Shown: one piece after another, positions 1 to 60,755 of the stretch | Numbering within the stretch: position 1 is the stretch's first letter | How the letters are laid out: every line of letters starts with the position of its first letter | DNA from: Ignavibacteria bacterium | GTDB taxonomy: Bacteria > Bacteroidota > Ignavibacteria > Tepidaquicellales > Tepidaquicellaceae | Assembly (NCBI GenBank): GCA_016929695.1 | Contig: JAFGII010000035.1 | Span: 1 to 64,000, forward strand | Length of the DNA: 64,000 bases | Direction of reading: 5' to 3' | Notes under the pieces: generated by a model | Databases searched by the model: none | The model's input: only the letters and a program-made list of their open reading frames with translations | What the model was told of the DNA's origin: nothing | Position numbers and translations under genes: made by a program

Positions 1-39
1 AGAAATCAGAATTAAAATTATTAATATTGTTTTTTTCAT
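1..39 (-). CDS. 5' end of a secreted or membrane protein gene, cut by the window edge
   Basis: On the minus strand an ATG at 39-37 opens a frame that stays open to base 1 and reads MKKTILIILILIS. Two lysines followed by an unbroken hydrophobic run is the start of a Sec signal peptide or membrane anchor. It would be transcribed away from ispF, so the roughly 170 bases between them would hold two divergent promoters. Only 13 codons are visible, so no family can be named and chance cannot be excluded. Confidence 0.55.
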   Translation of the reverse strand, partial: MKKTILIILILIS

Positions 40-206
40 TTGTACAGATTTTATTTCTTAAAGATACACATATTATTGCAATTTAAAACGGAAAGAATTT
101 CATACCAATCTTAACGAACTTTATGAACTCTACAAACTTTACAACTTTCAACTTGTCACTTGTCACTATATTAAATATTAGTTATTTTTATTAAAAAATT
201 ATTGGC

Positions 207-677
207 ATGAGATATAAAATCGGAATCGGTTATGACGTGCATAAGTTTGTTAAAGGAAGAAAATTAATCCTCGGAGGGATTAATATACCTCATACAAAAG
301 GTCTGGAAGGTCATTCTGATGCAGATGTGCTTCTGCATTCAATCTGCGATGCACTGCTCGGTGCCGCGGGATTCAGGGATATCGGAAATCAGTTCCCCAA
401 TACCGACCCGTCATATAAAAATATTTCGAGTTTGATTTTACTTGATAAAACATATAAACTTCTGAAATCAAAAAGATATAAAATAGAAAACATCGACTCG
501 ATGCTTATTCTTGAAGAACCGAAAATTAATAAATATATTGATGCGATGAAAAAAAATATTACGCGAACAGTAAAATCAGAAAATATATCAATAAAAGCAA
601 CTACTTCAGAAGGACTCGGCTTCACGGGGCAAAAGAAAGGTTGCGTTGCATACTCAGTCGCATTAATTTATAAATAA
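207..677 (+). CDS. ispF: 2-C-methyl-D-erythritol 2,4-cyclodiphosphate synthase
   Basis: IspF converts CDP-methylerythritol 2-phosphate to methylerythritol 2,4-cyclodiphosphate, releasing CMP, in the cytosolic MEP pathway to isoprenoids. The 156-residue protein is the usual family length. The metal ligands are visible as D10 and H12 in GYDVH and H44 in DVLLH. The family signature EGHSDADVLLH and the C-terminal ATTSEGLGFTG nucleotide-binding stretch are intact. It starts at the ATG that gives MRYKIGIGYD. It sits 3 bases before a PAP2 phosphatase gene and may share its transcript. That pairing could link isoprenoid precursor supply to undecaprenyl carrier recycling, but this is inference. IspD and IspE are not in the window. 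Confidence 0.97.
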   Translation: MRYKIGIGYDVHKFVKGRKLILGGINIPHTKGLEGHSDADVLLHSICDALLGAAGFRDIGNQFPNTDPSYKNISSLILLDKTYKLLKSKRYKIENIDSMLILEEPKINKYIDAMKKNITRTVKSENISIKATTSEGLGFTGQKKGCVAYSVALIYK

Positions 678-680
678 TTT

Positions 681-1244
681 ATGTTGGAATTTCTTCAGAC
701 GATAGATACAAATCTATTTTATTTTATTAATGTAACTCTTGCAAATCCGGTTACGGATGCGTTAACACCGTTTATTACCGAACGGGAACACTGGTTTATC
801 TTTTTCGGTATTATGTGGCTTGTTATGCTGTTTAAAGGAGGTAAAAGGGGGAAAATTGCTGCAATACTTATTCTAATTACAATCACCGTAAGTGACCAGA
901 CAAGCAGTTTTTTACTTAAAGATTTATTTGCAAGAATTCGTCCCTGTAATGTTCTTGACGGAGTTCATCTGATTGTTAACTGTACGGGTTCATATTCTTT
1001 CCCCTCTTCCCACGCGGTTAATCATTTCGCAGGAGCATCAATGCTCGGACATTTTTTTCCTGAATATAGAGTAGCTCTGTACGGAGGTGGATTTCTGGTT
1101 GCAATATCAAGAGTTTTTAACGGTGTTCATTATCCTTTTGATGTACTCGGAGGAATAATTGTTGGAATGTTAATCGGTTATATAATTGTTTATTTATGGT
1201 TATTATTAAACAGATATCTCAAAATTGAGTACAAGAAAGTATGA
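681..1244 (+). CDS. PAP2-superfamily membrane phosphatase
   Basis: A 187-residue type 2 phosphatidic acid phosphatase family protein that removes phosphate from lipid phosphates or diphosphates at the inner membrane. All three catalytic motifs are present: KX6RP at K80-P88, PSSH at 108-111, and SRX5HX3D at S143-D154. H111 and H150 would be the phosphoryl-transfer histidines. About five or six hydrophobic segments surround them, as in the family. The substrate cannot be read from sequence. Undecaprenyl diphosphate is a common one for proteins of this size, and the neighbours ispF (isoprenoid synthesis) and lnt (envelope lipoprotein maturation) agree with an envelope role. The gene stops 7 bases before the preferred lnt start. 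Confidence 0.9.
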   Translation: MLEFLQTIDTNLFYFINVTLANPVTDALTPFITEREHWFIFFGIMWLVMLFKGGKRGKIAAILILITITVSDQTSSFLLKDLFARIRPCNVLDGVHLIVNCTGSYSFPSSHAVNHFAGASMLGHFFPEYRVALYGGGFLVAISRVFNGVHYPFDVLGGIIVGMLIGYIIVYLWLLLNRYLKIEYKKV

Positions 1245-1251
1245 AGAAAAT

Positions 1252-2946
1252 ATGAAAACACCGTCAGTTCGGAAGACTGTCCTGCTTTGTTTGTTTACGG
1301 GGATTGTACTTGGACTGGCTTTTCCCCCGTTTAATCTGAGTTACCTTATTATTGCGGGATATGCAATATTTATAGGTATTATCCATAATTCAAAAAACTA
1401 CAAATCGTTATTCATAAGAGCATATATTGTTTTCCTTTTTTATGATTTAGTTGCTCTTTCCTGGATTGCATTGAGCGGAATGCGGGAGAATGCTGACAGG
1501 TTTCTCGTTCTCGGCGGCTCGCTTACAATCCTCATTCACTGCGTTTTAAATCAGATACCTGTTTTCATATATTATTTTATTTACCAAAAAGGCAGGACAG
1601 CCTTCCGGACTGTCAATCAACCAATCAGCCGGTCAGCCAGTCAGCCGGTTAACTTTTCTTTAATATTTTTCCCCTTTATTTTTACTGCTTACGAATATTT
1701 TATGTCACTTACAGAAGTAAGTTTCCCGTGGCTTACAACAGGTAATGCATTTACAAATCAACTTGTAAAAATTCAATATGCGGATATCACGGGAGTATTT
1801 GGAATTTCCGTCTGGGCTTTATCTTTAAGTGTTTTGTTTTATTATTTGTTTTCTGTGCTACGGTATTCCAGAAATAATGTTAAAAATATTTTCTCACGCA
1901 AATCCCTGACGGTTGCTATTCTGATTATAATTTTATTTGTATCACCGAATTTCTACACATATTTTGCAAGGTCCGAAAAAAACTATGCAAGAAATGAAAT
2001 TTGTGATACGGTTAAAATCGGTATAATTCAGCCGAATATTAATCCCTGGTATAAATGGAGCGCCGGGTCCTCCGACCTCGTTCAGACTTATATTCAATCT
2101 ATCAGAGATATCGTCAATAAAGATTCAACAGTGGAATTGATTGTCCTTCCCGAAACCGCTGTTACATTTTATCTGCTTTATCCGTCTTTCAAGGACAGGT
2201 TTAAACCGTTAGAAAATATTGTTGACAGTATAGGAATACCTGTTCTTATAGGTTTCCCCGATATGGAGGTCCATGAAGATTTATCAAAAATCAGAGTTGA
2301 TTCAAGACAATTGTCTAACGGTAAGTATTATGATATTTTTAATGCTGTCGCTCTGCTTGAAAAAAATAAACCTGTTTATCAGAAATATGCAAAGAACAAA
2401 CTTGTTATAGGCAGCGAAAGAATGCCTTATCAGGAAAAATTGATTTTTCTCAAAAATTTGATAACGTGGGGAGTAGGTATAAGTTCGTATCAGATTGGTT
2501 TAGATACAACAATTTTTAATACAGGTAATCTGAAATTTAACACCGCTATATGTTATGAATCAATCTATCCGGAATTCTTTTCTAAATTTGTAAAAAAAGG
2601 TGCCGAATTCTGCGTTATTGTTACAAATGACGGATGGTGGGGAAAACTCCCGGGAACACATCAGCATAATCAGTTCGCTGTACTGAGAGCAATCGAAAAC
2701 AGAAGATGGCTCGTCCGATGTGCCAACACGGGAATATCGGGAGTGATTGACCCGTACGGTAATTTACTGGAGCAAACAAAAATTAATGAAGAAGCAATAA
2801 TTATTACGGCATTAGGACTGAGAGATGAAATCACATTCTATACAATGCACGGCGATTATGTTGGCAGATATTCTCTTTATTTGACAGTATTGATTTTTAT
2901 CGGGGGAGTAATAATGAAATTCATTAACGGTTTAAAAAAGAAATGA
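1252..2946 (+). CDS. lnt: Apolipoprotein N-acyltransferase
   Basis: Lnt adds the third acyl chain to the N-terminal cysteine of lipoproteins at the inner membrane. An N-terminal block of about six membrane helices is followed by a carbon-nitrogen hydrolase domain with the catalytic triad E301 (LPETA), K381 (AKNKLV) and C434 (AICYES), and a last C-terminal helix. I chose the ATG at 1252 (MKTPSVRKTV). The frame is open to a TTG at 1225, but that start would overlap the PAP2 gene. The loop between two N-terminal helices (about residues 115-134) is odd: it is coded by a GACAG-type palindrome followed by five copies of an octamer repeat, giving a hydrophilic low-complexity loop. Several lipoproteins in this window would be substrates. 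Confidence 0.93.
   Translation: MKTPSVRKTVLLCLFTGIVLGLAFPPFNLSYLIIAGYAIFIGIIHNSKNYKSLFIRAYIVFLFYDLVALSWIALSGMRENADRFLVLGGSLTILIHCVLNQIPVFIYYFIYQKGRTAFRTVNQPISRSASQPVNFSLIFFPFIFTAYEYFMSLTEVSFPWLTTGNAFTNQLVKIQYADITGVFGISVWALSLSVLFYYLFSVLRYSRNNVKNIFSRKSLTVAILIIILFVSPNFYTYFARSEKNYARNEICDTVKIGIIQPNINPWYKWSAGSSDLVQTYIQSIRDIVNKDSTVELIVLPETAVTFYLLYPSFKDRFKPLENIVDSIGIPVLIGFPDMEVHEDLSKIRVDSRQLSNGKYYDIFNAVALLEKNKPVYQKYAKNKLVIGSERMPYQEKLIFLKNLITWGVGISSYQIGLDTTIFNTGNLKFNTAICYESIYPEFFSKFVKKGAEFCVIVTNDGWWGKLPGTHQHNQFAVLRAIENRRWLVRCANTGISGVIDPYGNLLEQTKINEEAIIITALGLRDEITFYTMHGDYVGRYSLYLTVLIFIGGVIMKFINGLKKK
1596..1652 (+). repeat. Palindrome plus octamer array inside lnt
   Basis: The imperfect palindrome GACAGCCTTCCGGACTGTC (1596-1614) is followed directly by 8-base units of the type TCAATCAA, CCAATCAG, CCGGTCAG, CCAGTCAG, CCGGTTAA (1613-1652). 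The unit resembles the CCCATCAA octamer array just after lnt. The whole block is in frame and adds about 20 residues to a loop of the membrane domain. Confidence 0.75.
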
Positions 2947-2971
2947 TCCGAGAACTACAAAATTTTCATAA

Positions 2972-3035
2972 CCCATCAACCCATCAACCCATCAACCCAT
3001 CAATCCATCAACCCATCAATCCATCAACCCATCAA
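2972..3035 (+). repeat. Octanucleotide tandem repeat, eight units
   Basis: Eight consecutive units of YCCATCAA (CCCATCAA six times, TCCATCAA twice) fill exactly 64 bases between the lnt stop and the end of the opposing HU-like gene. No spacers or flanking genes suggest CRISPR. An octamer array can change copy number by slipped-strand pairing. Confidence 0.95.
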
Positions 3036-3104
3036 TTCCTTCTTCCAAATCTCCGGTTTTTAAAGAAAATCCGCTTCATTTAAAAAACCCTCTGAAGAAA
3101 TATA

Positions 3105-5426
3105 CTAAATCTCCTCATCTTTATCCGTTAAATCTTTCTTATCAAACTTCTTTTTTATGTCTTCAAAATAGTCGTCCATGCTTTTGGGAAAATCAATGTC
3201 ATCAATCTTTTTAAACGGCGATGATTTATCGTCGGATTTTGAAATATCAGCCGAAGGAGATTCTTTTTTGTCAAATTTATCCAGAAAATCCTTAATGTCT
3301 TTTAGTGTTTCATCTGCGGAAGTCATTGAGGAACTTTCGTCAACCGGTTTGAAAGGAGTATCGGTAATTTTAAAATCCGGTTCTTTGTCGGGAATTTGTA
3401 TTGCCGGTTTTTGTGTTTCTTCAGTCAGGATATCGTCATCAATTTTCATTGTAATTTCCTCGGGGTGAAAGTCTTCTGAATATTTTTTTAATAATTCTTC
3501 AAACTTGTGTTTCTTGTCTTCGTATGTAAGTCCCTCTTCAATATGCATATCCTCTTTAACGGAAAAATCTGTCTCGCTTTTAACGGGAGGGATTTCTTCC
3601 GGAATAACAGGTTTTTCCCGTGATGTTTCAGCAGGATGTTCGGGTATTTCCGGTTTCGGTGTAATAGTCCTGACAGGTTTTTCAATTTCCGGTGCGGCTG
3701 TATCAACAGGTTCGGTGGTTTTTTTCGGTTCCTGTTCTTCCGGAAAACCGTATCTTAATTTCTTATATATCTGACTTATGGGTATATCGTCTGCATCAGT
3801 AATGGTTTCCCCGGCTGCTCCCGCTTTGGAAGGAGGTTCTTTGGTAATCAATATATCTTTATCTTTCGTTACTTCTGTTGATATGATTTCGGGTTTTATT
3901 TCTTCTTCTTTAATAACGGTCTCGGTAATATCAGGAAAAGTCTCCTGTATGATTTTTTCCTCTTCTGCTTTCATTACGGTTAATTCAATGTCATCTTCAT
4001 CATCTTTCATTATTTTATCAATTGTCTCTGCGAAGGAAATTTCCGGTCTGCCTTCCTGTTTTATTTCCTCAACCGGCGGTTTGGCTATACCGGTTAAATC
4101 GGCTATTGATTTTTCAGGAAATCCCTTTTGCTTGTCCAGTATTTTTTCGTAAGATTTACGCTCTTCCTCTTCCTTTTTACGGAACATTTTTATTTTTTCC
4201 TCAAAATCGGTAACTATCTTCTCGGTAATGGGTGATTCTTTTTCTTTTATCACGTAAGGTTGTTCTGCAGGTTCTTCTGTAATGGTCTCGGTTATATCTT
4301 CCGTGCTTTTTGTTATGACGGTTTCTTCAGGTTCTTTAATATCATAATCAGGTGATGTTTTTTCAGTTGTTTTTTTCGGACTTTCTTCTGCAGCTGTTTT
4401 TGCCTCAGATTCTTTTAGTTTTGTTTCCAGTGGTTCGGTAATTTCTTCGGGCTGTTCCTCAATTACTGCTTTTTCCTTAATTAATTCCTCAGCTTCTTCA
4501 AGTTCCTGTATTATTCGTATATCAAGTTCAGGTTCGGCCGCTTTTTCATCAGGTTCGGCCGAAACTTCTTCTTTCTCTTCAAATAATTCCTGGAGAACTC
4601 TAAAATCAGTGGAAATTTTTTCTTTTAGCTCGATATCTTCTTCCTCAATATCTTCCATCAGAATATTTTCTTTTAAAATCGTATCACCCGTAATTTCATA
4701 CTCGTCGGGTTTCTTTTCTCCGGTTATAACAGGAATTTCAGTGTCTTTTTTATCTGCAATTTCGGGGATTCTTTCAGGTGCCTTGGGCATTTTATCCTCT
4801 TTCAGAACCTCGGCGGTTTCTTCCGGAAAATATTCTTCTTCTTTAAAATGCTTGCTTTCTTTATACAGTTTTTTTATCTCGTCCCTGTTTAGACTTCTGA
4901 TAATCTGTGTTTTCAGATTATTAAAGTTATAATTTACTTTTTCGGAGAATTTTTTTGCAGGTGAAAAACTGATTTTGTCCTTTTTGTTAATTTTAAACTT
5001 ACCGAATTCCGCAATGTTAACATTTCTTTTCCCTTCCAGATATTCCCTGATAACCTCAAAAAGAATATTATAAAATTCATAAACCGTTATTTCGTCAACT
5101 TTTGTATTTGCGGAAACCTGTGCAATAATTTTCTTTGACGGAAAATCTGCTTTTTCATATGCAGGAGTTTCTTTTTGTTCCGCTCCATTTTTAAATTCAA
5201 AAAGAATTTTATCTTTAGGAGGAAGAAGGACTACAACTTTCCTGTTGTAATCTATCATGGTCTGCATTTTTCTTCTTTCAACTCTGAACATTCCGAAGTT
5301 GTTAATCAGAACAGTTTCCCTGTTTATGACTGAACTCTTTATTGAATCAAATATCTGAGTAAATAAATCCGCACTGTTTTTTTTATTTAGAGTTGAATCT
5401 GCTGTTAGTTTGTTTAATAAACTCAT
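3105..5426 (-). CDS. Tandem HU-like domain protein with long acidic disordered tail
   Basis: The first 175 or so of 773 residues hold two HU/IHF-like domains. The first is at about 1-79, with an N-terminal helix pair then INNFGMFRVERR. The second is at about 108-172, with NIAEFGKFKINKKDKISFSP. The GxF turn before the beta-arm is the HU family hallmark, as in HU-CCDC81 proteins of Bacteroidota. The remaining 590 or so residues are extremely rich in Glu, Lys, Pro, Ile and Thr, with no membrane segment, and look disordered. The upstream gene, 29 bases away on the same strand, encodes a TPR-TM-SPOR protein, so the pair probably works together. A DNA-, protein- or cell-division-linked role is inference. 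The Ser-rich frames opposite this gene are shadows of its Glu/Lys-rich codons. Confidence 0.85.
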   Translation of the reverse strand: MSLLNKLTADSTLNKKNSADLFTQIFDSIKSSVINRETVLINNFGMFRVERRKMQTMIDYNRKVVVLLPPKDKILFEFKNGAEQKETPAYEKADFPSKKIIAQVSANTKVDEITVYEFYNILFEVIREYLEGKRNVNIAEFGKFKINKKDKISFSPAKKFSEKVNYNFNNLKTQIIRSLNRDEIKKLYKESKHFKEEEYFPEETAEVLKEDKMPKAPERIPEIADKKDTEIPVITGEKKPDEYEITGDTILKENILMEDIEEEDIELKEKISTDFRVLQELFEEKEEVSAEPDEKAAEPELDIRIIQELEEAEELIKEKAVIEEQPEEITEPLETKLKESEAKTAAEESPKKTTEKTSPDYDIKEPEETVITKSTEDITETITEEPAEQPYVIKEKESPITEKIVTDFEEKIKMFRKKEEEERKSYEKILDKQKGFPEKSIADLTGIAKPPVEEIKQEGRPEISFAETIDKIMKDDEDDIELTVMKAEEEKIIQETFPDITETVIKEEEIKPEIISTEVTKDKDILITKEPPSKAGAAGETITDADDIPISQIYKKLRYGFPEEQEPKKTTEPVDTAAPEIEKPVRTITPKPEIPEHPAETSREKPVIPEEIPPVKSETDFSVKEDMHIEEGLTYEDKKHKFEELLKKYSEDFHPEEITMKIDDDILTEETQKPAIQIPDKEPDFKITDTPFKPVDESSSMTSADETLKDIKDFLDKFDKKESPSADISKSDDKSSPFKKIDDIDFPKSMDDYFEDIKKKFDKKDLTDKDEEI

Positions 5427-5455
5427 AGCGTTGTTAACTGTAATAAATTATTAAT

Positions 5456-7192
5456 TTATTTAATTTGCGAAGCAACGGAATCTGCTTCGCTTAATGTTTT
5501 AAAATTCCCGAGTCTGACTCTGTATAATATTTGCGAACTGTCTTTATCAAATCTGTATATATATGGTTTCAAGTTTTGTTCCGATAATTGTTCAACACGT
5601 TTTACCGCAAGCAGACTGTCTTTAAAAGAACCTGCCTGTAGAGAATAGCCCGTATCGTTCTCAATTAGTATGAGCCCTTTTAATACAAGCATCTCTTCAA
5701 AAGATTTCTCAAGAACTGCTGATGCTGTATCACTGCTTTGTTTCTCGCTGATGAATACACTGATTTTCGGGGTATCCTGCATTGCTGCCGTTTCCTGTGT
5801 CTCTTTCTCGTCAAATACACCCGATGATATCAAAGCCATGATAATTACCGCGATAATTAAAACTATTATTACGATATACAGCCATAAATAATTCGTTGTT
5901 TTTTTCTGTTTCTGAACGGGAGAAATATATTTTGACGCAGGTATTTTTTGTGTGGTTTCCTGAACGGTTTCCCGGATAATAGGTTCTTTGTCTTCTGTTT
6001 TTTCTGCAGGAGGAGGAGGAAATGAAACAATTTCTTCGTGAAGTTTCTTAAGTTCATCGGACATTTTTACTTCCGGTAAGGTATCGGCTGTTTTCTCTTC
6101 TTTCTCTTTTATAAACTCTTCAAGGTCAGGAAATTTCTCCCCGCTATCGGGAGTAATTTTCCCCTCCTTGATTTCTTTTTTTTCAACTTCAATAAATGAA
6201 TCGGAAAAACTCCCGGTTGTTTCATATTCTTTCAGAAACTCGTCAATATAATCAGGTGGTTTTTTTTCCTCGGGAGGTCCGGCAGGAATTATTTCGTCTT
6301 TTATAACATTTCTGTCAAATTCCAGTATGGATGATTCCTCTTTTGGTCTGAGACTTTCTATCCCCTCGCTTAAATAATCAGCATCCTTTATAGATATATT
6401 TTTTTCGGATTCCGTATCGGCTGTTCTTGTAACAGGCGGCGGAATGAATTTATCTTTTTCGGGTTCCGGTTTTTTTTCATACGAGGGCTCGGATTTTTTT
6501 TCCAAAGCCAGTTTTTCATAAGCTTCGTTAATTGCCTTTATTTTTTCCCTGACTTCAGTTTCATAAGAAGGTTTGAGAGAAATTGCTTTTTCCCAGTCGA
6601 GTTTTGCTCCGAGGTAATCCTTTTTCAAATAGAAATATGCCGCACCTCTGTTGAAGTATGCTACAGCATAACTGGGTTTTATTTTTATTGCTTTCGTGAA
6701 ATCATCAATGCATTCGTCCGTCTTGGATAAATTGAAATAAGCACTGCCCCTGTTGTTATATGCTTCGGCTAAGTCCGGTTTTAAAATTACCGCTCTCGTT
6801 GCATCAAGTATGGCATCTTCAAGTTCGCCTGAAAGTCTTAATGCCTTTGACTTGTTATTGTATGCTTTAAAATTCTCGGGATTGTACTTCACCGACTTTC
6901 TGAAATCCTCAGCGGCAGCTTTATAATTTTTTTGCTTTAAATTACTTATGCCTTTCTTGTTGTACAGTTGGGATGTGTATTTACGGTCTCTCGACTTTGC
7001 AAGCTCTGCGGCATCATTGTAATTAATTTGTGCCTGCTCAAAGTTTTTCATGTGATAATAACAGTCACCGCGCAGTTCAAAACCCTCCGGATTGGCAGGC
7101 TCTTCAGCAATTATCTTATTACTGATTTCAATTGCTTTAGTGAAATTACCTTTTGCAATTTCGTTTAATGCAATATCTATGTATTTTTTCAT
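5456..7192 (-). CDS. TPR - transmembrane - SPOR domain protein
   Basis: Residues 1-235 of 578 form about six tetratricopeptide repeats (for example AYNNRGSAYFNLSKTDECID and AYFNRGAAYFYLKKDYLGAK). A charged Pro/Glu linker runs to about 430. One membrane helix lies at about 435-456. A SPOR domain ends the protein at about 514-578, with GYSLQAGSF and YRVRLGNFKTLSEAD. SPOR domains bind denuded septal peptidoglycan, so the C-terminus should be periplasmic and the TPRs cytoplasmic, where they could bind a partner. There is no signal peptide, which fits that topology. It is the first gene of a two-gene operon with the HU-like protein. The linker composition resembles the tail of that partner. Confidence 0.88.
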   Translation of the reverse strand: MKKYIDIALNEIAKGNFTKAIEISNKIIAEEPANPEGFELRGDCYYHMKNFEQAQINYNDAAELAKSRDRKYTSQLYNKKGISNLKQKNYKAAAEDFRKSVKYNPENFKAYNNKSKALRLSGELEDAILDATRAVILKPDLAEAYNNRGSAYFNLSKTDECIDDFTKAIKIKPSYAVAYFNRGAAYFYLKKDYLGAKLDWEKAISLKPSYETEVREKIKAINEAYEKLALEKKSEPSYEKKPEPEKDKFIPPPVTRTADTESEKNISIKDADYLSEGIESLRPKEESSILEFDRNVIKDEIIPAGPPEEKKPPDYIDEFLKEYETTGSFSDSFIEVEKKEIKEGKITPDSGEKFPDLEEFIKEKEEKTADTLPEVKMSDELKKLHEEIVSFPPPPAEKTEDKEPIIRETVQETTQKIPASKYISPVQKQKKTTNYLWLYIVIIVLIIAVIIMALISSGVFDEKETQETAAMQDTPKISVFISEKQSSDTASAVLEKSFEEMLVLKGLILIENDTGYSLQAGSFKDSLLAVKRVEQLSEQNLKPYIYRFDKDSSQILYRVRLGNFKTLSEADSVASQIK

Positions 7193-18335: not shown

Positions 18336-18442
18336 ATTATTTGAATTTATTAAAAATAATATATTAAATACTATAAATAAAGGTACGGTAATAAACCGTT
18401 GCTGAACAATAAAAGAATAAAGATATAAGTACAAAAAGTAAG

Positions 18443-18515
18443 TGGACAGGGCCGGAATCGAACCGGCGACACATGGATTTTCAGTCCATTGCTCTACCAA
18501 CTGAGCTACCTGTCC
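18443..18515 (-). tRNA. tRNA-Phe (GAA)
   Basis: A 73-base cloverleaf on the minus strand. The acceptor arms GGACAGG and CCTGTCC pair perfectly. The D arm contains TAGCTCAGTTGGTAGAGC, the anticodon loop CTGAAAATC gives GAA, and the T arm contains GGTTCGATTCC. The discriminator base is A and CCA is not encoded. Confidence 0.98.
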
Positions 18516-60631: not shown

Positions 60632-60648
60632 CTTGAGCCAGAATATTT

Positions 60649-60729
60649 CGTGTTTTCACGCGTATTATTTTAGCACCGTGTTTCCGGCTTACCGGTTGCT
60701 GTTTCTTGTATAAAGAAATCTCTTAATAC
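60649..60729 (-). ncRNA. SAM riboswitch aptamer, SAM-IV or SAM-I/IV-variant type
   Basis: Minus-strand order: P1 arm GTATTA (60729-60724), AGAGA, a P2 hairpin TTTCTT-TATAC-AAGAAA, GCAACC, a P3 region with CCGGTAAGCCGG, GGTGCTAAAA, then P1 arm TAATAC (60667-60662). The AGAG, GCAACC and GGTGCTAAA blocks are the ligand-core signature of the SAM-I clan. There is no P4 helix between P3 and P1, and a CGTG-AAAA-CACG hairpin lies directly 3' of P1 (60660-60649), as in SAM-IV or SAM-I/IV-variant RNAs. The P2 is short, without the internal kink-turn of SAM-I. The position upstream of metK fits the sensed ligand. A -7-like box lies 27 bases upstream. Confidence 0.82.
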
Positions 60730-60755
60730 ATAAACGTCTTCCTAAAGAACTGTAA

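Follow-up and report, generated by a model that had tools for sequence, protein, structure and literature searches.

The window analysed here is a 64,000-nucleotide stretch of Ignavibacteria bacterium (assembly GCA_016929695.1, contig JAFGII010000035.1), taken from a genome of about 2.78 Mb whose genus-mates are the Ignavibacteria metagenome-assembled genomes Ch128a and SKW224 (loci L060 and L063). Its minus strand carries a pair of adjacent genes. Gene 1 encodes a TPR solenoid, a linker, a transmembrane (TM) helix and a SPOR domain; gene 2, which follows it, encodes two HU-like domains (HU1 and HU2) and a long acidic tail (Table 1). This is the layout given by the initial annotation of the window, down to the 29 bases between the genes, and Pfam, AlphaFold2 (AF2), composition and the open reading frame (ORF) positions confirm it.

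The gene pair and its domains

In gene 1, the Pfam family TPR_1 matches at 2.6e-25 and SPOR (PF05036) at 39.5 bits against a cut-off of 21, over residues 513-578; the profile match together with the Q and YRVR residues of the glycan site place the domain in the SPOR family. The AF2 model comprises a solenoid from residue 2 to residue 233, the TM helix and a SPOR fold, and by topology the solenoid would lie on the cytoplasmic side. The FtsN equivalog TIGR02223 gave no match to this protein up to an E value of 0.01. In gene 2, PF00216 (Bac_DNA_binding) covers two stretches with 53.5 bits against a cut-off of 22.4, and among the locus rows it matches, at E 0.01, HU1 in 19 of 19 and HU2 in 17 of 19. 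The N-terminal repeats belong to the HU superfamily, as the annotation had expected, and stay outside the prokaryotic HU-CCDC81 family (PF18174/PF18175): PF18175 reaches 18.7 bits against a cut-off of 35 and PF18174 has no match up to E 1.

The AF2 model of residues 1-190 of gene 2 contains two HU-type folds (mean predicted local distance difference test score, pLDDT, 64.4). It was built from three sequences, the fused rows only, mixed HU1/HU2 alignments having been dropped because MAFFT placed HU2 rows on HU1. The best structural matches of the HU1-HU2 model extend over both units. Among them are single-chain IHF (2iie; Z 9.4, root mean square deviation (rmsd) 3.4, 113 aligned) and two chains of doublet microtubules, 8g2z_0T (Z 6.8) and 8snb_1K (Z 8.3, 148 aligned), which may be CCDC81 chains. 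The fusion of HU1 and HU2 in one gene is what would be expected if they form one pseudodimer. In addition, the model of window positions 4857-5426 matches 9io5_T, from the G1-ATPase of Mycoplasma mobile gliding (Z 10.2, rmsd 4.2, 8% identity); this perhaps reflects only a common arrangement, and the available part of the paper on that ATPase makes no mention of an HU fold.

The HU1 proteins of families f12 and f16 retain the canonical arm RKG[RV]NPKTG, the proline of which is pushed into DNA by IHF and HU, so that a DNA-binding ancestor is plausible. In family f1, to which the window belongs, the HU1 arm has kept about its length and lost the N-P tip, and the HU2 arm falls short of that of f16 by about 11 residues in f1 and by 19 in the window's genus. 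Neither HU1 nor HU2 of the window has the beta-arm with intercalating proline (RNP) of DNA-bending HU/IHF, and the same genome encodes an ordinary HU of 94 residues with ARIGRNPATGE. Because the DNA-intercalating arm has been lost, the link to the nucleoid envisaged in the annotation is weakened. The tail of gene 2 contains 29.5% D/E and 16.2% K/R over 593 residues, with a net charge of -79. Its C-termini differ among all three members of the genus, and docking of the TPRs on the extreme C-terminus was rejected for that reason. The motif SMDDYF near the tail end resembles S-Y-D-D-V/I-F, placed just before the TM segment in related HU2-TM-SPOR proteins, and may be its equivalent.

Table 1. Features of the gene pair in window coordinates
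Feature	Position	Strand	Evidence
Gene 1, TPR-linker-TM-SPOR membrane protein, 578 amino acids	5456..7192	-	ORF list, Pfam, AF2
Gene 1 TPR solenoid, residues 1-233	6494..7192	-	Pfam TPR families; AF2 pLDDT mostly ~90
Gene 1 linker motif SDELKKLHEEI, residues 379-389	6026..6058	-	motif counts, alignment, AF2
Gene 1 TM helix, residues 436-457	5822..5887	-	locus reading, AF2
Gene 1 SPOR domain, ~residues 505-578, Q and RVR of glycan site kept	5459..5680	-	Pfam, alignment, AF2
Intergenic gap, 29 bases	5427..5455	-	ORF positions
Gene 2, HU1-HU2-acidic tail, 773 amino acids, without TM and SPOR	3105..5426	-	ORF list, Pfam
Gene 2 HU1 domain, residues 1-79; arm hairpin present, R-N-P tip absent	5190..5426	-	Pfam, alignment, AF2
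Gene 2 HU2 domain, ~residues 96-176; arm deleted	4899..5141	-	Pfam, alignment, AF2
Gene 2 acidic tail, residues 181-773, probably disordered	3108..4886	-	composition
Gene 2 tail-end motif SMDDYF, residues 749-754	3165..3182	-	tail comparison

Locus types among the relatives and their history

The HU1-HU2 region of the window was searched in 59 relatives at E 0.001 and matched 24 genomes, the window's own included, all of them from family f1, of which 29 genomes were sampled (G004, G012, G014, G015 and G023 remained unmatched). The locus was read in all 24. Twelve of them (G000, G001, G002, G006, G007, G009, G010, G021, G022, G026, G027 and G028, the loci of G007 and G026 being interrupted by contig ends) have a TPR-TM-SPOR gene, and in 12/12 it adjoins the HU gene or genes; the two genes are neighbours in relatives, as the pairing proposed by the annotation demands. 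Outside the window's genus, the nine TPR-bearing genomes encode HU1 as a separate gene of 91-94 amino acids, followed by HU2-acidic linker-TM-SPOR, and a GAF-domain gene (assigned by Pfam in one) lies between TPR and HU1 in eight of the nine, G007 being without it. In the window's genus (3/3 genomes, G000-G002) HU1 and HU2 are fused, the HU chain is devoid of TM and SPOR, and the GAF gene has been lost, although a 433-residue frame of G000 matches GAF weakly. Twelve f1 genomes lack a TPR gene at the locus, within the limits of their contigs, six of them with HU2-TM-SPOR (G005, G008, G013, G016, G019, G020) and six with short HU proteins without TM (G003, G011, G017, G018, G024, G025). HU1 and HU2 are separate genes in most relatives, and are also fused in the TPR-less G011 and G024.

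Outside f1, HU1 and HU2-TM-SPOR are found in the sister family f2 (2 loci) and in f12 (4), f13 (2) and f16 (3), with an adjoining TPR gene in none. The search for fused and split forms thus identifies this TPR-less HU1 / HU2-TM-SPOR pair, present across all these families, as the older state, and the usual arrangement in the class is two genes, HU1 and HU2-linker-TM-SPOR. One subclade gained the TPR-TM-SPOR gene beside the HU genes, and the window's genus later fused HU1 with HU2 and dropped the TM-SPOR of the HU chain. The annotation had regarded the pair as a split version of a module that Bacteroidota usually carry in a single HU-HU-SPOR membrane protein. The loci support this: such chains do occur in Bacteroidia, and HU-HU and TM-SPOR do lie in two adjacent genes in the window. 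The pair did not, however, arise by simply cutting the Bacteroidia gene in two, since in the relatives and outgroup families read HU1 and HU2 were already separate and HU2 had its own TM-SPOR.

On a tree of Lnt, encoded beside the pair, the 12 TPR genomes group as a single clade (100/98) once G017, which has a long branch, is left out; the tree excludes the TPR-less G005, G016, G019 and G025, for which the stretch read contains no Lnt. With G017 included, its place among the TPR genomes is not resolved, and the test does not reject a single clade for these 12 (approximately unbiased (AU) test, p 0.409). The tree context suggests that the handover from HU to TPR protein discussed below was essentially a single event, long conserved afterwards.

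Two observations concern the older form. The f12 loci L104-L107 (e.g. L105:5173-8567) carry ExbB-, ExbD- and TonB-like genes directly after HU1 / HU2-TM-SPOR, assigned by Pfam for L105 and by ORF position and sequence for the other three, L104 stopping after the first; these neighbours hint at a Tol-like envelope context. The HU2-TM-SPOR protein of an f16 locus (L068:4551-5840, minus strand) has a weak match to the FtsN equivalog, 33 bits with a cut-off of 107.65.

Linker motif and SPOR domain in TPR and HU proteins

The linker of the TPR proteins is variable except for one block: in nine aligned proteins K-x-L-H-x-x-I, within DELxxLHxEI, is invariant, and AF2 predicts the corresponding segment of gene 1 as a helix, the sole one with raised confidence in the disordered stretch that leads up to the TM. 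Counted as L[HN]x[EQ]I, the motif is present in 12/12 TPR proteins, in 0/12 HU proteins of those same genomes and in 12/12 HU proteins of TPR-less genomes (11 exact; G017 has the variant LNDEI), and shuffled sequences would give 0.35/12 and 0.93/24. The stricter LH form has 23 matches among the 364 ORFs of 25 f1 loci, all of them in the TPR or HU protein of the locus, one each; the loci without a strict match are L032, downstream on the window's contig where there is no such locus, and L073 (G017). Family f2 has the related linker motifs VELHNxI and SFSDxF. As the motif occurs in HU proteins at TPR-less loci, it does not act simply as a ligand for TPRs, and binding to the neighbouring TPR was rejected as its sole explanation; so was a role as ligand of the GAF protein, for the motif persists in G000-G002, G008 and G020, which have no GAF gene. 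In a TPR-type protein of G007 whose N-terminus is lost at a contig end (L048:6088-7707, minus strand), LHxEI occurs twice, in repeated linker segments.

The SPOR residues Q..S plus [YF]RVR are distributed in the same manner, being present in TPR proteins (12/12) and in the HU proteins of TPR-less genomes (5/5, G020 uncounted), and in none of the HU proteins of TPR genomes (0/9). There the decay is graded: Q is kept in 8/9, and G006 and G022 are basic at both arginine positions. In RlpA the side chains contacting the glycan are Q270, R302, R309 and R311 (PMC6895207), and in an alignment of a relative's SPOR to 6i05 the Q falls on Q270 and RVR on R309/R311, the match being weak (E 0.22). The rule is valid within f1 and, with Q..S in 9/9 SPORs, in f12, f13 and f16; it fails in f2, where both outgroup SPORs are without S and RVR and have A and RAR instead.

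A profile of the TPR SPORs scores 63-85 bits on the HU SPORs of TPR-less genomes, versus 23-46 bits on those of genomes with TPR, 31-43 on outgroup HU SPORs and 13-33 on other SPOR proteins (20 stretches, 15 different, from eight genomes); with the profile reversed, the TPR proteins score 48-87 versus at most 56. SPOR-only trees were dropped as a means of placing the TPR SPOR, having too few columns and no resolution. The distributions of motif and glycan-site residues point to a handover, in which the SPOR and linker function moved to a TPR protein new at the locus ahead of its loss from the HU chain. A further division concerns a glycosyltransferase-like protein, apparently spread over two adjacent genes in G016 (L119:253-1701 and 1718-3189) and likewise in G013 (L141:1492-2937 and 1-1479, minus strand): gene one ends in TM-SPOR, gene two has a new domain and then the transferase part (identified by eye), and the SPOR clusters with f2 HU2 SPORs (99/95).

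A putative envelope adaptor and its alternatives

Considering (i) the architecture of both proteins, (ii) their conserved neighbourhood, (iii) the motif present once per locus, (iv) the HU SPOR, first decayed and later lost, and (v) the loss of the arm, all of them read from sequence, we propose that the pair is most likely a two-protein envelope adaptor, composed of an HU/IHF-like pseudodimer and a TPR-TM-SPOR anchor at the septal wall. The two halves would once have been united in HU2-TM-SPOR. The product of gene 2 would be soluble, HU1 and HU2 pairing within a single chain as a pseudodimer that a long acidic tail follows, and the product of gene 1 would expose its TPRs to the cytoplasm, followed by the helical DELxxLHxEI linker, a single TM helix and, in the periplasm, a SPOR domain expected to bind septal peptidoglycan in its denuded form. 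The TPR protein would have succeeded the HU2 C-terminus in anchoring and recruiting; in that capacity it would act in the same process and probably with the same HU module, bringing the HU protein to the membrane or septum. The LHxEI helix would recruit a cytoplasmic partner, and the pseudodimer may now be mainly a protein scaffold of the CCDC81 kind, not a DNA bender.

That the TPR and HU proteins still work as one envelope device we regard as rather probable. More tentative, and less likely than not, is the fuller proposal, in which the HU pseudodimer passed from membrane-anchored DNA binder to soluble scaffold under TPR-TM-SPOR, and DELxxLHxEI, as a recruitment motif not described before, calls in a core protein of the Ignavibacteria cytoplasm, perhaps one of division; if it were true, an HU scaffold with a recruitment motif would be a bacterial counterpart of the protein-scaffold role of CCDC81, and the conversion could be traced stepwise in living relatives.

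Several points weigh against the adaptor. The AF2 model of the HU domains is of middling confidence. Full separation is found in only three genomes, the HU2 of the nine other TPR genomes keeping its TM-SPOR, and six HU proteins without TM retain the motif, which is therefore not bound to membrane anchoring. By tree context the handover is one event, so that 12/12 versus 0/12 does not amount to 24 independent observations, and G017, whose locus lacks a TPR gene, lands inside the TPR clade of the Lnt tree, on a long branch. SPOR trees of 76-109 columns leave the origin of the TPR SPOR unresolved, one clade of locus SPORs is neither shown nor rejected by the AU test (p 0.158), and the closeness of the profiles could come partly from slow evolution under the same constraint. 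Finally, no division gene adjoins the pair within the stretch read.

Among the alternatives, a tether from nucleoid to septum, with HU-HU on DNA, the TPR protein on the HU tail and SPOR on the septal wall, survives best and is nevertheless unlikely. In its favour, PF00216 and known HU/IHF structures fit the HU folds, and the arm retained in f12 and f16 is compatible with DNA binding in the ancestor; however, the f1 HU1 without N-P tip, the HU2 short of 11-19 arm residues, the ordinary HU in the same genome and the strongly acidic tail all speak against it. Burroughs and colleagues reportedly assigned, in 2017, a chromosome-partition role to CCDC81-like proteins of Bacteroidetes. It is still less probable that an independent TPR-TM-SPOR envelope protein and an independent soluble HU-HU-tail protein merely share an operon. 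These genomes encode many TPR proteins, and the flanks of the pair (MATE, Lnt, PAP2, IspF) consist of housekeeping genes with no relation to it, but adjacency in 12/12, one linker motif per locus and decay of the HU SPOR wherever the TPR protein exists speak against chance neighbours. Replacement of the function, with a TPR C-terminus derived from another SPOR protein, a convergent motif and a re-purposed HU SPOR, finds room in the SPOR trees and the AU test just mentioned and is very improbable, as by score the 20 other SPOR stretches are far more distant from the TPR SPORs than are the HU SPORs of genomes without TPR, and the 11-residue motif is common to both as well.

The two-protein adaptor resembles several known systems. 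With the HU-CCDC81-type proteins of Bacteroidia (PF18174, PF18175 and PF05036; 315-409 amino acids in 10 loci read, domains assigned by Pfam in one) it shares two HU domains, a membrane segment and SPOR as a module, which there form one chain and here two adjacent genes in 3/3 genomes of the genus. The window adds a TPR solenoid and the tail, its HU domains fall below the CCDC81_bac cut-offs, and LHxEI, present in gene 1, is absent from all 10 Bacteroidia chains. PF18175 exceeds its cut-off in 18/80 genomes of the phylum sample and 0/119 genomes of the class. The pair would work like the Bacteroidia module, yet by the tests made it stands outside its HU families. The two-gene operon of f2, f12, f13 and f16 shares the HU pair and TM-SPOR; it differs in having no TPR gene, unfused HU1 and HU2, a retained HU2 SPOR and, in f12 and f16, a retained HU1 arm. 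FtsN, DedD and DamX have a single TM, and proteins of the FtsN/DedD/DamX/RlpA type resemble gene 1 in a SPOR with the Q and Arg residues of the glycan site, whereas the window has a cytoplasmic TPR domain and an HU neighbour. Single-chain IHF and the CCDC81-like proteins also have tandem HU folds in one chain; those proteins are engineered or eukaryotic. A Tetrahymena study describes a CCDC81 homologue that stabilises CFAP52 in cilia (PMC10105768).

Proteins with HU-HU-TM-SPOR occur in many Bacteroidota genomes, and searches of the open-access literature, judged by their listings, brought up no paper on an HU-SPOR protein or on the window's pair and no experimental one on HU-HU-TM-SPOR. The handover provides an evolutionary argument for a physical partnership of the TPR and HU proteins, and DELxxLHxEI is a short motif that can be used as bait. 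The graded series among relatives, from an intact DNA arm through arm loss and SPOR decay to loss of the anchor, bears on whether it is DNA or protein that such HU modules hold at the septum. The handover also bears on how the eukaryotic CCDC81 family became structural.

A promoter scan gave no more sites than shuffled sequences. Terminator-like sites exceed the shuffles and are scattered over both strands. Elsewhere in the window, the minus strand carries a tRNA-Phe gene (18442-18515) and a SAM-I/IV riboswitch (60633-60734, 60.7 bits).

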